Assembly (NCBI GenBank): GCA_004796425.1 | Contig: QZLB01000280.1 | Coordinates: 1-42,377, forward strand | From: Desulfobulbaceae bacterium | GTDB taxonomy: Bacteria; Desulfobacterota; Desulfobulbia; Desulfobulbales; Desulfocapsaceae | DNA length: 42,377 nucleotides | Reading direction: 5' to 3' | In this document: in pieces, positions 15,655-20,372 of the stretch | Layout: every line of letters starts with the position of its first letter | Position numbering within the stretch: the first letter of the stretch is position 1 | Notes under the pieces: model-generated | Told to the model about the DNA's origin: nothing | What the model saw: the letters and a program-made list of their open reading frames with translations, nothing else | Database searches by the model: none | Program-made: the position numbers and the translations under genes

Positions 15655-16413
15655 ATGATGTCCATAAACACCGCCGGTTTGAAAAATATAAAGTTGCCGA
15701 TCCGTGTTATGCAAAGAGACGGCAAAATTCAGGATACCGTGGCTACCATTTTTCTGCAGGCTGGTCTATCCAATGCACTCGAACCAAATGCCGTCACTTC
15801 ATTTACTACTATTCTCAACCGATACTCAACGCAAATCAGTGTTGAGTCGTTCCCTGACCTTCTCAAGGAAATCGTTGAATCCTTTAATGCAGTTAGTGCT
15901 GAAATTGAAATGAGTTTTCCGTATTACCTTGAAAAAAGTGCGCCTGTAACCGGGACCAAAAGTCTCATGGAATATCGCTGCACGTTTACCGGCAGCCTTG
16001 GAGACAAAGAAGGTTTTCTACTCACGGTCTCTGTTCCGGTAACCACCTTGTGTCCCTGTTCCAAGGAGATCAGCAGCGAGGGTGCCCACAATCAGCGGGC
16101 TGAGGTCACATTAAGTGTAAGGTTCAACAAAATGATCTGGGCAGAGGATGTAATAGAGCTGATCGAAAAAAGCGCCTCATGTGAGCTTTTCGCTTTATTG
16201 AAGCGCCCTGATGAAAAATATGTCACAGAAAAAGCGTTTGCCAACCCGATGTTTGTTGAAGACGTGGTCAGGAAGGTGGCTGTGCTTGCCCTTGAACATC
16301 CTGATATCATCTGGTTTTCGGCCAGTGTAGAGAGTTTCGAATCAATCCATAAGCATAGTGCGTACGCTTATGTAGACAGTGGTGACATTCAAGAAAAGAG
16401 TGAGTTGAGATAA
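15655..16413 (+). CDS. folE2: GTP cyclohydrolase I type 2 (FolE2)
   Basis: A 252-residue tunnelling-fold enzyme of the FolE2/MptA family, which opens GTP to dihydroneopterin triphosphate for folate (or queuosine) synthesis. Diagnostic features are VPVTTLCPCSKEIS with the active-site Cys, GAHNQRAEVTL, and a C-terminal HKHSAYAYVDS. FolE2 can work with metals other than zinc, and in many bacteria it is the zinc-limitation paralogue of FolE; no Zur box is obvious upstream. Tandem ATGs at 15655 and 15658 leave the exact start open. It stands alone and converges on the 69-aa gene. Confidence 0.94.
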   Translation: MMSINTAGLKNIKLPIRVMQRDGKIQDTVATIFLQAGLSNALEPNAVTSFTTILNRYSTQISVESFPDLLKEIVESFNAVSAEIEMSFPYYLEKSAPVTGTKSLMEYRCTFTGSLGDKEGFLLTVSVPVTTLCPCSKEISSEGAHNQRAEVTLSVRFNKMIWAEDVIELIEKSASCELFALLKRPDEKYVTEKAFANPMFVEDVVRKVAVLALEHPDIIWFSASVESFESIHKHSAYAYVDSGDIQEKSELR

Positions 16414-16428
16414 CCTCTCAGTTACTCA
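16401..16428 (-). terminator. hairpin terminator of the 69-aa membrane-protein gene
   Basis: On the minus strand TGAGT-(AAC)-TGAGA-GGTTA-TCTCA-ACTCA forms a bulged 10-bp stem that includes the stop codon region, followed by the T-rich CTCTTTTCTT. It would end a short monocistronic transcript. It also lies at the end of folE2 on the plus strand but has no T-run in that direction. Confidence 0.55.
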
Positions 16429-16631
16429 TTCACGACCTGAAAAAGAACCCGTTGATGATCGCGTTCTACTAACTGAGAAAGTGAATACCCCTCTATTATC
16501 AAGAAAGAAAGCAATAGAAAAATGGTAATACTGAGGAAACTGATCAGTATGGGACCAAGCAATCGACCAAGCCCACTCCACCTGATAACCTGCGATCGAT
16601 ACCTGAACGTTGAGTTTGATAGTAATTCCAT
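16422..16631 (-). CDS. 69-residue single-span membrane protein, putative GlrR/sigma54 target
   Basis: The ATG is preceded by AAAGGTGG six bases upstream, a good ribosome-binding site. The protein has a basic N-terminus (RYRSQVIRWSGLGR), one strongly hydrophobic span (about residues 25-46, ILISFLSITIFLLLSFLII) and a short charged tail (QLVERDHQRVLF), so it is probably an inner-membrane protein with the N-terminus inside. I do not recognise the family. It is a complete unit: -24/-12 promoter at 16677-16691, three GlrR-like palindromes upstream and a terminator overlapping its stop. A GTG-started frame (16426-16641) overlaps it but lacks these features. A role in the envelope response sensed by GlrK is inference. 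Confidence 0.65.
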   Translation of the reverse strand: MELLSNSTFRYRSQVIRWSGLGRLLGPILISFLSITIFLLLSFLIIEGYSLSQLVERDHQRVLFQVVNE

Positions 16632-16676
16632 ATTTTCCCACCTTTAAAAGATTTCAGGAAGCACAAACTCAGACTT

Positions 16677-16691
16677 GCAGATTGGATGCCA
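16677..16691 (-). promoter_or_regulatory. sigma54 (-24/-12) promoter of the 69-aa gene
   Basis: The minus strand reads TGGCATCCAATCTGCAA. The invariant GG and GC are separated by exactly 10 bases, and TGGCA and TGCA match the sigma54 consensus TGGCAC-N5-TTGCA. The predicted start near 16665 gives a leader of about 33 bases ending in the ribosome-binding site of the 69-aa gene. Confidence 0.65.
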
Positions 16692-16761
16692 GAAAGTAAA
16701 TATCTTTGCGACCTGCCATGGATCAAAGTCGTATCAATCTGGTATTACACGCTTTATTTAG

Positions 16762-16778
16762 TGTCCGATTTCGTGACA
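16762..16778. promoter_or_regulatory. GlrR-like activator site, TGTC-N9-GACA
   Basis: TGTCCGATTTCGTGACA: palindromic TGTC/GACA half-sites with a 9-base spacer, one base shorter than the enterobacterial GlrR motif TGTC-N10-GACA. Its centre is about 105 bases upstream of the predicted sigma54 start, a normal distance for an enhancer site. Confidence 0.45.
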
Positions 16779-16811
16779 GGGAAAATCCTGAACGTTTAAG
16801 GAACCTTCACT

Positions 16812-16829
16812 GGTCTCTTGCAGGAGACA
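16812..16829. promoter_or_regulatory. GlrR-like activator site, GGTC-N10-GACA
   Basis: GGTCTCTTGCAGGAGACA: seven of eight bases of TGTC-N10-GACA with the exact 10-base spacer; the core GTCTC/GAGAC is itself palindromic. It is centred about 155 bases upstream of the predicted sigma54 start. Confidence 0.45.
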
Positions 16830-16887
16830 ACTCAACCACTGAGAGATGATTTGGTCGGTGAAATACAGAAATGATGGGCCCTTTGCA

Positions 16888-16905
16888 TGTCGCTCAAGTA
16901 CGACA
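16888..16905. promoter_or_regulatory. GlrR-like activator site, TGTC-N10-GACA
   Basis: TGTCGCTCAAGTACGACA: an exact match to TGTC-N10-GACA, the motif bound by GlrR upstream of glmY in enterobacteria. It lies just after the glrR stop region and about 230 bases upstream of the predicted sigma54 start. Nothing else was seen in the spacer between glrR and the 69-aa gene. Confidence 0.5.
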
Positions 16906-16933
16906 GATAAAGATAAGCGAACAAATGTATGCG

Positions 16934-18274
16934 TTAACCTTTAAATATTGCAGGGGCAATATGGTGCCGATTGAGAATTTTGTAAAAATCGGTCCGATTT
17001 CTTCCTGCCAGGCGGGCTGCCTGTGCTACATTACCACCTGTTGTTTGCAGAAGTTTTACCAGATAACGCTGGCCAAATTCAAAGCGAGCCTCATCAAAGG
17101 TGAGAATCTTTACGTTCTCTTCCTTTAACGCTGCAGATACCAGATTAACGGGTATAAGTTCTGTGGTTGAGAGAGCGGCAGCCTGTTCGACAGCATTTTG
17201 CAACTGTCTAATATTCCCCGGCCACGGCGCTTCTAGAAGAACGGTCATAGCGTCTGGGGAGAATCCCACTACCTTTCGTTCATTCTGGGAATTGATAATC
17301 TCCAGGAAATGTTCGACAAGCATTGGAATATCTTCGCTTCTTTCTTTGAGTGGTGGTACTTCAAGCGTTACGACATTGAGGCGATAATAAAGGTCTTCTC
17401 GAAACGTTTTTTCTTCCACACTTTTCTCAAGATTCTGATGAGTAGCAGACACGATCCTGACATCAACATCAATGGAAACCGTATCTCCCACCGGCCGTAC
17501 CTGACGCTCTTGTAGCACGCGCAACAGTTTCACCTGCAGGTGAAGAGGCATGTCACCTATTTCATCGAGAAACAACGTTCCTTTATCGGCAGCTCTGAAC
17601 AACCCGTCATAGGCTCTATCAGCTCCTGAAAAAGAACCTTTCGCATGACCAAAAAGCTCCGACTCCAGTAATGCTTCAGGTATTGCGCTACAGTTTACCG
17701 GTATAAATGGGCCATCAGCCCTATCGCTGGCTTTATGCAACGCTTTTGCCAACAGCTCCTTGCCAGTTCCGCTCTGACCTCTTATTAAAATGGATGAATT
17801 GCTTCGCGCTACCAAACGAACCTTATCGAGCAATTGTTCCATTATTGCACTGCGAGAAACAATTTCACGACGCCACTCAGCGATGTCGTGATCATCGCTT
17901 GAAACTGACGCCGCTTTTAAAGCTCGCTCGATCTCTTTTAGGAATAGTTTGCCATCGATTGGTTTTGTGAGAAAGGAATACACACCTTTTTTCGTTGCCT
18001 GTACAGCCTCTGGAATTGACCCATGGGCAGTAATAATGAGAACCGGAATCGAGGTATTTACTTTTCGAATTGCATCATAGAGGCTTAAGCCATCCATTTT
18101 GCCCATTCTCAAATCGGTTACAACCAGTTGAGGAGCAGAGGCGGTAAACGTTGCCATGGCCTCCTCGCCGCTTTTTGCAGTTATTACCTTATAGCCTGCA
18201 CTTTCCAGGCGGAGCGTCCAGAGACTCAGAAGATCGTCTTCGTCATCAACTAAAAGAATCGTTGGCTTGGTCAT
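16934..18274 (-). CDS. glrR: sigma54-dependent response regulator GlrR (QseF)
   Basis: A 446-residue NtrC-class activator. It has a receiver domain with phospho-acceptor Asp54 (VVTDLRMGKMDG), an AAA+ domain with Walker A GQSGTGKE (about 166-173) and Walker B GTLFLDEIGD (232-241), and a Fis-type HTH at the end (NVAQAARLAGRNRTDFYK). Long stretches match E. coli GlrR, including HGSIP.AV.AT..GV.SFLTKP and the C-terminal AGRNRT.FYK. The sigma54-contacting loop reads GSFSGA (213-218) instead of GAFTGA, so the key Thr is Ser; Ser is the mildest replacement and may keep function. It is third in the glrK operon, 12 bases after the qseG-like gene, and its likely binding sites follow directly downstream. 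Confidence 0.92.
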   Translation of the reverse strand: MTKPTILLVDDEDDLLSLWTLRLESAGYKVITAKSGEEAMATFTASAPQLVVTDLRMGKMDGLSLYDAIRKVNTSIPVLIITAHGSIPEAVQATKKGVYSFLTKPIDGKLFLKEIERALKAASVSSDDHDIAEWRREIVSRSAIMEQLLDKVRLVARSNSSILIRGQSGTGKELLAKALHKASDRADGPFIPVNCSAIPEALLESELFGHAKGSFSGADRAYDGLFRAADKGTLFLDEIGDMPLHLQVKLLRVLQERQVRPVGDTVSIDVDVRIVSATHQNLEKSVEEKTFREDLYYRLNVVTLEVPPLKERSEDIPMLVEHFLEIINSQNERKVVGFSPDAMTVLLEAPWPGNIRQLQNAVEQAAALSTTELIPVNLVSAALKEENVKILTFDEARFEFGQRYLVKLLQTTGGNVAQAARLAGRNRTDFYKILNRHHIAPAIFKG

Positions 18275-18286
18275 ATTGGTTCCGTT

Positions 18287-18877
18287 CTATCGTTTTTTTG
18301 GATGCAAGAGCAATTCAACTTCCTTCAAATTTTCAATTTTCTTCTCAAGAGATTTAATTTCTTGATTTTTCTCATCAATTTCTGCCTGCTTTTTTTGCTG
18401 AGCAATCTGGAACTGGGCAGTCTTTTCTTCGTTTCGATCCTGTAGTCTTTTAATCTGCGCCTCGTGTTCCTCTATCGTATTCAGCAATTTGACCTTATGT
18501 TGAAGTATTTCAGTAAAGCCAATTGCCCCCTTGCCATGTCTTGGACGTACTTTATGGATCTTTTTTAGCATTACGATGGTTTCAGCGATTTGGATTAAAT
18601 CAGCGTTTTCATCCATTGCCAGACAGGCAAGTTTCCCCCAGTTCTCGGTCTCGATGTTTGCTTCAATCTTTTTTATTTCGTCCCGGTATTCTTTCTTGAG
18701 ATTTTTGCTCGGCCTGTTTTTGCGCTCTACAATACAAAAGACCGCAGCCTCAACCGGTGCCATCTTGTAGACCGTAATCGGGTCAAGATCAAACTCATCA
18801 AAATGCAATTTACCCTGTTCCAGGTGACAGCTGGAAAGTGTGAAAAGCATTGTAATTAGCACAATTTTTCTTAACAT
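18287..18877 (-). CDS. qseG: QseG-like outer-membrane lipoprotein
   Basis: A 196-residue protein with a signal peptide and lipobox (LSSC, Cys17), a central domain with conserved Cys-type residues (AVFCIVERKNRP, LACLAMDEN), and a long C-terminal coiled coil (about residues 125-190, EKKIENLKEVELLL). Overall sequence similarity to E. coli QseG is low, but length, lipobox, coiled-coil end and position between the GlrK and GlrR genes all agree. In enterobacteria QseG binds the periplasmic part of GlrK and stimulates it, so this protein is probably the envelope sensor partner. AGGA overlapping the glrK end serves as the ribosome-binding site. Confidence 0.75.
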   Translation of the reverse strand: MLRKIVLITMLFTLSSCHLEQGKLHFDEFDLDPITVYKMAPVEAAVFCIVERKNRPSKNLKKEYRDEIKKIEANIETENWGKLACLAMDENADLIQIAETIVMLKKIHKVRPRHGKGAIGFTEILQHKVKLLNTIEEHEAQIKRLQDRNEEKTAQFQIAQQKKQAEIDEKNQEIKSLEKKIENLKEVELLLHPKKR

Positions 18878-18881
18878 AGCA

Positions 18882-20372
18882 TCAATCCTGCTGAGTTGCG
18901 AACTCGTTTACCTTAATACCCTCGGGTTTACCTAATGGGAGTGTCACACCAAAACGCGCACCTTTTTCGCCAGGGTTCAGTAACGTAATATTTCCCTGGT
19001 GATGCTTTACATATTCTTTGACTATTGCCAAACCAAGACCACTGCCTTTGATAACCGAATGTGCCTCAGTTTCTACCTGGTAAAATGGTTGGAATATTTT
19101 ATCCTGTTCATCAACGGTGATACCCGGCCCCGAATCATAAATAATACAGGCTGCACGACGAGAATCTGCCGTCAAACGACAACCTACGGTCCCTCCAGAT
19201 GGGGAAAATTTTACCGCATTGGAAAAGAGATTTTCAAAAATTGTTTCAAGTTCTTTACGATCTCCTGTGACCGTAACATCTTCCATTTTAATATCCAGTG
19301 TAATATTGCGCCCCAGTAAATTTGTGCGTTGAGAATTGGCCACTTTCTCTAATAATTCTTTAAGGTTTACATTTTCTGGTTTGCGTGACTTCTGGCCAGC
19401 CTGAGCCATATTAAAATTGATAATATTTTCGATTAATTCCTGCAACAACACACTATTGTTGACCAGAATCGATGTTACATCCTGCTGGCGATCATTTAGA
19501 TCGCCAACCAACCCCTCACTGAGCAAGGCGGCACCTTCTCTTATAGAGGCGAGTGGTGTTTTTAATTCATGAGAAATATGAGCAAGAAATTTTGATTTTT
19601 CCTGTTCAAGCGCATCGAGACGTTTTCTTAACCAGTCAAGTTTCTCACCGACCGCTTCAACATCAAGAGGCCCGGTTACCATCACCGGTGTTTTAAAATC
19701 TCCATTACCCATACGCTCGACACTTTTGTTTAACTGCCTGATCGGCCAGGAGAGCAAAAACGCCATCACTCCAATCAGGAAGATGGTAAGCAGGATAAAG
19801 GCACCGGTTTGTGATACGAGAGCACTTTGTGTCTCAGCCGTCGTTGTCTGGAGCCCCTCAACCTCATCCTTCATCATTTCCTGGATGCCCTTTTTTATCA
19901 GCTGAGCGTGTTCGTGCTGAATTGAAAATGAATTTATGGCAGCCTGTATGGTAACGGCAGGATCGCCCTGCAAGGTGCCATTTTTGGCTGAAATGATCGT
20001 GGTCCTAAGCAGATTCCTGGAATTCCTCATCAATTCCAATCTCTGTCGAACATTATGTTGAAGCGGTAAACCAAGTAATTCAAAAAGTAACGAATCGATC
20101 CGATTATGATACTGCTCGGTTTGCTTGATATATTCCGATCCATTGGTAATCGCATATAATCGCAGTGTTCGCTCCTCACTACGCAATAATTCACCGAGGA
20201 TCTCACTGTCTCTGGTACCACTAACTGCATGATCGACGACTTCAATCCCTGTTCCGGTTACACGTTCGATATATGTTAAGGTGGTCCACAGACCAACCCC
20301 CAGGGGCAATGATACCGTGATAAAACCAAGAACTACGAGATTGAGAAATGAGCGAGGTCGTAATATTTTCAT
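18882..20372 (-). CDS. glrK: sensor histidine kinase GlrK (QseE)
   Basis: A 496-residue membrane kinase. It has TM1 (about 10-32), a helical periplasmic domain of about 155 residues, TM2 (189-210), HAMP, HisKA with phospho-acceptor His268 (HISHELKTPLASIREGAALL) and a HATPase with N box ENLFSNAVKFS, DSGPGI and GSGLGLAIVKEY. The region around the His and the following EG.VG.L...Q..V.SIL closely resembles E. coli GlrK. It should phosphorylate GlrR in response to envelope stress, helped by the downstream lipoprotein. It is first in the operon; the 335-base spacer upstream (20373-20707) should hold its promoter. Confidence 0.9.
   Translation of the reverse strand: MKILRPRSFLNLVVLGFITVSLPLGVGLWTTLTYIERVTGTGIEVVDHAVSGTRDSEILGELLRSEERTLRLYAITNGSEYIKQTEQYHNRIDSLLFELLGLPLQHNVRQRLELMRNSRNLLRTTIISAKNGTLQGDPAVTIQAAINSFSIQHEHAQLIKKGIQEMMKDEVEGLQTTTAETQSALVSQTGAFILLTIFLIGVMAFLLSWPIRQLNKSVERMGNGDFKTPVMVTGPLDVEAVGEKLDWLRKRLDALEQEKSKFLAHISHELKTPLASIREGAALLSEGLVGDLNDRQQDVTSILVNNSVLLQELIENIINFNMAQAGQKSRKPENVNLKELLEKVANSQRTNLLGRNITLDIKMEDVTVTGDRKELETIFENLFSNAVKFSPSGGTVGCRLTADSRRAACIIYDSGPGITVDEQDKIFQPFYQVETEAHSVIKGSGLGLAIVKEYVKHHQGNITLLNPGEKGARFGVTLPLGKPEGIKVNEFATQQD

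Follow-up and report, generated by a model that had tools for sequence, protein, structure and literature searches.

The locus described here lies in a stretch of 42,377 nucleotides of DNA from a Desulfobulbaceae bacterium (contig QZLB01000280.1), analysed as a whole and referred to below as the window. Its minus strand carries glrK, the gene of a QseG-like lipoprotein and glrR, followed by two GlrR-type sites, a sigma-54 promoter and the gene of a 69-residue membrane protein, which occupies the slot between glrR and the convergent folE2. Coordinates and sequences of these features are collected in Table 1.

Table 1. Features of the glrK-glrR locus in the window, listed by position.
Feature	Positions	Strand	Remarks
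folE2	15655-16413		convergent to the 69-residue ORF
Gene of 69-residue single-span membrane protein	16422-16631	minus	orthologues in four species; purifying selection; one predicted helix
Ribosome-binding-site-like sequence, AAAGGTGGG	16637-16645	minus	purine-rich; similar before start codons of four orthologues
Sigma-54 -24/-12 promoter, CTGGCATCCAATCTGCA	16676-16692	minus	GG-N10-GC
N9 palindrome, TGTCACGAAATCGGACA	16762-16778	minus	probably not a site
GlrR-type site 2, TGTCTCCTGCAAGAGACC	16812-16829	minus	7/8 TGTC-N10-GACA; 76 bp from site 1
GlrR-type site 1 (upstream activating sequence), TGTCGTACTTGAGCGACA	16888-16905	minus	exact TGTC-N10-GACA
glrR, sigma-54 response regulator	16934-18274	minus	proposed activator; Pfam receiver and sigma-54 domains
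QseG-like lipoprotein gene	18287-18877	minus	by position; LSSC lipobox by eye
glrK, sensor histidine kinase	18882-20372	minus	Pfam HisKA and HATPase_c

The glrR product has GlrR as its best NCBIfam match (590 bits, under the equivalog cut-off of 763) and is 55% identical to E. coli GlrR over 440 residues, with the HTH residues RNRT(D/E)FYK common to both proteins. The sigma-54 contact loop reads GSFSGA in the window and GAFTGA, the usual form, in E. coli; despite this loop, the window's GlrR is expected to be active. GlrK is 27% identical to its E. coli counterpart over 480 residues (E = 4e-61), and a sequence comparison of the lipoprotein with E. coli QseG showed no significant similarity. 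The order of kinase, lipoprotein and regulator is repeated at L118-L120. At the g7 loci L121, L122 and L123, glrK-glrR is flanked by genes that appear, by eye, to be of the exosortase and PEP-CTERM types.

As a query against 58 genomes, its own and those of relatives, the 69-residue protein gave four matches besides itself (E values from 1.8e-7 to 1.6e-11), and in all four relatives the homologous ORF has the GlrR gene on one side and folE2 on the other. When the starts preceded by a ribosome-binding site are used, the five proteins are 69 to 71 residues long. The carriers are five species in four genera (three besides that of the window), all within one family; Desulfofustis glycolicus DSM 9705 is among them, and two others are metagenome-assembled genomes. 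A profile built on the core of the protein and run over 93 genomes of the family recovered the same five genomes with E < 1e-23. The runner-up (L014, at G025:C57:4079-4147; E = 4.5e-5) covers 23 positions and contains two in-frame TAG codons, and the profile match in a further member of the phylum, G582, spans 19 residues inside a 468-residue frame. GlrR itself has no close match in G025. Orthologues are known from the five carriers only, which limits the small protein to a single small clade.

Pairwise differences among the orthologues number 180, 109 and 308 at codon positions 1, 2 and 3, and mean pS is 0.84 against a pN of 0.31; synonymous sites are near saturation, so these values show constraint and not its exact ratio. 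The original prediction, which was made from the window's sequence alone, had described a single-span ORF and had proposed this comparison of synonymous with non-synonymous change. With its orthologues and its codon-level constraint, the re-read frame is a real gene under purifying selection. The ribosome-binding site claimed ahead of it was likewise found on re-reading, and the four orthologues have purine-rich sequences there too.

No Pfam or NCBIfam model matches the small protein above its cut-off. AlphaFold2 predicts one long helix, with a mean pLDDT of 73 and the best values over residues 21 to 50, and the conserved core has the consensus LSRLVxPxLISFVSISLFLFLSYMIIEGYSIVQM across the small proteins. 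All five orthologues have a net positive N-terminal tail, and in four of them the C-terminal tail is neutral or negative. These charges fit an N-in, C-out orientation and would suit a protein that crosses the inner membrane in that sense.

Three TGTC/GACA palindromes had been read upstream of the small gene. Across the five orthologous loci there are nine N10 palindromes with at most one mismatch, compared to a mean of 0.75 and a maximum of three in dinucleotide shuffles and to zero for a reversed-motif control, and each locus has at least one at 7/8 or better. The N9 and N11 spacings occur at chance level in the five loci (for N9, two observed versus 0.80 in shuffles), so that the N9 palindrome TGTCACGAAATCGGACA was rejected as a third GlrR site, while the exact and the 7/8 N10 palindromes stood. 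Four of the five loci have a pair of sites separated by 76 to 79 bp. At least two TGTC-N10-GACA sites, the number looked for in a GlrR/QseF-controlled sigma-54 unit, are present in the window (one exact, one 7/8), and G002, the weakest locus, has a lone 7/8 site upstream of its promoter.

The -24/-12 element, for which GG-N10-GC spacing had been claimed, was confirmed on re-reading and recurs in all five loci with a (C/T)TGGCAT...TGCA core. Elements of such quality are found in 0.2 to 1.7% of shuffled 120-bp upstream stretches; the G021 element lies just outside the 120 bp tested, and so G021 rests on direct reading of the locus rather than on the shuffles. Exact TGTC-N10-GACA palindromes occur 47 times in the window's genome and the reversed control 49 times, so that a lone palindrome means little, and it is the pair, the promoter and the conservation that count. 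A hairpin with a T-rich tail had also been described after the ORF; as a terminator it could not be upheld, since the folding z there is -0.97 and a search for a terminator-like site found none. The self-contained GlrR/sigma54-type unit first proposed thus keeps its promoter, two sites and small protein gene and loses the N9 site and the terminator. Absence of the palindromes, the -24/-12 element or the 69-residue frame from relatives had been named as grounds for giving it up; the suggested scan of relatives' glrR loci for N10 palindromes, a -24/-12 element and a small ORF found all of them kept in the five orthologous loci, and the claim survived.

Matches to the C-terminal part of GlrR are present in 73 of 258 genomes of the order, and the downstream stretches were read for most of these 73. 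In family f12, taken to be Desulfobulbaceae, 34 of the 37 genomes have N10 palindromes after glrR (61 observed versus 4.4 in shuffles), with 65 and 66 bp the commonest distances from site to site. The five g7 genomes and the three f4 genomes all have them after glrR as well; in f3 and f6 they are not above chance. Many g29 genomes have the palindromes, and the promoter scan saw no convincing -24/-12 element in them. Outside TGTC and GACA, the sites keep G or T at position 5, C at position 6, G at position 13 and C or A at position 14, giving the extended motif TGTCKC-N6-GMGACA, which is also that of the E. coli glmY sites. As a positive control, the region upstream of E. coli glmY yielded the sites TGTCTGTAAATCACGACA, TGTCGCTTTCTGGCGACA and TGTCTCTTTTTAGCGACA and the promoter TTGGCACAGTTACTGCA, with TGTCGCTTTCTGGCGACA and TGTCTCTTTTTAGCGACA 63 bp apart compared to the 65 to 66 bp of Desulfobulbaceae. 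In sequence, then, the control region matches that of E. coli glmY beyond TGTC and GACA, and with the identity between the two GlrR proteins this bears out the glmY-like promoter architecture that had been claimed.

Half-site sequences can be common to activators of the NtrC family, and the sites could serve autoregulation of glrR or another such activator, with a different regulator reading the small gene. We consider this improbable: the sites lie downstream of glrR and before a promoter directed away from it, their occurrence goes with that of glrR from family to family, and their likeness to the E. coli GlrR sites extends past the core.

The gene behind the sites is not the same everywhere. 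In 14 genomes, three of them from g7, what follows glrR is the gene of a protein that looks exported and bears a motif similar to WRANPxxDNVxGYRLYYG (L060, L062, L063, L069, L071, L074, L088, L091-L093 and L108; in g7, L047-L049); at these loci it comes immediately after glrR and the paired sites. For two examples of this protein, no Pfam or NCBIfam family scored above its cut-off. In G073, a g7 genome, a 36-residue membrane peptide with a ribosome-binding site lies between the promoter and the exported-looking protein; the small-protein profile gives no match to it at that locus, so we do not call it a homologue and regard it as a positional counterpart only. The wider feature is a putative GlrR output slot directly downstream of glrR, its gene content differing by lineage.

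A screen of the window's genome for further targets required a promoter score of at least 10 at 40 to 400 bp downstream of an exact palindrome. Five of the 47 exact palindromes have such a promoter, and three of these five have a second palindrome nearby, namely, the 69-residue unit, a unit on G000:C319 and a unit on G000:C94. On G000:C319 (L172:160-760), paired sites and the promoter CTGGCATCCTTTGTGCA precede about 300 nt without a good ORF and with a folding z of -5.9. The same layout stands before the same MBL-fold gene in G008 (L176:1212-1640). The site pairs of the L172 and G008 units are 78 and 76 bp apart, and both genomes have the same 19-nt loop, 88 to 89 nt after the promoter. G002, G005 and G021 have the orthologous MBL-fold gene and lack the RNA unit in front of it. 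The loop motif AACACTCGCACTGTATCCA has matches in ten genomes; in the contexts read, sites and promoter accompany it only in the window's genome and G008, and it was set aside. The L172 stretch is a candidate for a GlrR-controlled small RNA, in two genomes. On G000:C94 (L148:1-760, minus strand), a palindrome pair and the sigma-54 promoter TTGGCACTGATTGTGCA precede the gene of a 131-residue protein that is weakly PilZ-like (E = 0.03, below cut-off) and is divergent from a possible sensor gene. Given a slot that varies by lineage and these further candidate targets, GlrR probably has outputs besides the 69-residue unit.

Since the L172 unit, which has the same architecture, stands before an apparently non-coding stretch with strong folding, and since the neighbouring GlrR target in E. 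coli is the small RNA glmY, the transcript at the window locus might itself be a GlmY-like small RNA with the ORF secondary. This appears somewhat less probable even than a different regulator, as conservation tracks codons, ribosome-binding-site-like sequences stand before each start, and searches at this transcript found no Rfam family and no terminator. For the GlmY RNA family in particular, the whole window was searched at gathering scores and 16300-16930 at E values up to 5, both without a match.

The stop of the small ORF is only a few tens of bases from the 3' end of folE2 in all five loci, overlapping it in one, and, with a terminator sought and none found, the transcript could enter the convergent gene from its 3' end and lower its expression. 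Antisense control of this kind seems very unlikely, given that the protein frame itself is conserved and that different genes fill the slot in other lineages. A random ORF behind chance palindromes, an idea that draws on the single TGTC-N10-GACA being as common as its reversed control in the window's genome, can be dismissed on the conservation in four further species, the codon-level constraint and the shuffle controls.

The reading that we favor, with a probability of roughly 0.7, is that GlrK-QseG-GlrR controls the small gene directly and that the product of this gene acts as an inner-membrane stress effector or feedback peptide. An envelope signal would cause GlrK to phosphorylate GlrR, which would bind the two upstream TGTC-N10-GACA-type sites and render sigma-54 polymerase active at the -24/-12 element; the short mRNA would then be translated into a protein of 69 to 71 residues predicted to span the inner membrane once via the conserved core. 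Control of the small gene by GlrR and sigma-54, including binding and activation in vivo, is very likely from the layout of the conserved loci. On disturbance of the envelope the protein would accumulate in the inner membrane, and what it would do there is, above all, conjecture: it may be an envelope-stress effector, as the original prediction had suggested, or, with the same tentative standing, a peptide that feeds back on GlrK or another membrane partner. In the latter role it could tune GlrK as MgrB tunes PhoQ; the membrane or another partner could also be its point of action. Mimicry of the first helix of GlrK by the small-protein helix found no support when put to the test (p from 0.05 to 0.64, with unrelated helices scoring as high).

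These observations suggest that GlrR, in a small group of sulfate-reducing-type bacteria, has an output that is conserved but undescribed. The occurrence of a glmY-like control region so far from the enterobacteria, before an unnamed membrane protein, indicates that the switch reaches far beyond enterobacteria and that its outputs change. A more ambitious picture, and a doubtful one, would combine a GlrR slot of swapped content across the Desulfobulbales with a structured small RNA in the window's clade and feedback of the small protein on GlrK; if true, the GlrR switch would be common far beyond enterobacteria, with outputs that change. The role of the GlrR system could be tested on a short, well-delimited target in the cultured Desulfofustis glycolicus.

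The gene of a sigma-54 activator also adjoins a sigma-54-dependent envelope-stress gene in the Psp (PspF) and ZraSR-ZraP systems, which differ from the glrR unit in their regulators, target proteins and binding sites. Among the open-licence papers searched, none mentions GlrR together with a Desulfobulb- name, and the main text of the two sigma-54 regulon papers checked contains neither GlrR nor QseF. MgrB, the feedback peptide of PhoQ, resembles the product described here in being a small single-span membrane protein induced by a two-component system on which it may act (PMC2789325, PMC8404706), a likeness that for the 69-residue protein is predicted from sequence; the control of MgrB differs from the sigma-54 control proposed here, and a sequence relation is not claimed. 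The closest parallel is QseE-QseG-QseF (GlrK-QseG-GlrR) with glmY. In E. coli the kinase, stimulated by QseG, passes phosphate to the activator, which then binds upstream sites with the help of IHF and switches on sigma-54 polymerase; the targets named there for GlrR in Enterobacteriaceae are rpoE and the small RNA glmY, both activated in E. coli from sigma-54 promoters (PMC6075780). The consensus of the GlrR sites is TGTCN10GACA (cited in PMC8745638). The window's locus shares with this system the order of kinase, lipoprotein and regulator, a target gene that adjoins the system, and a sigma-54 promoter with TGTC-N10-GACA sites that have the same flanking bases. Unlike E. coli QseG, the QseG-like protein is recognized here by position alone, and the targeted gene, that of a small membrane protein, lies downstream of glrR, whereas in E. 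coli the target is the small RNA glmY, upstream of glrK.
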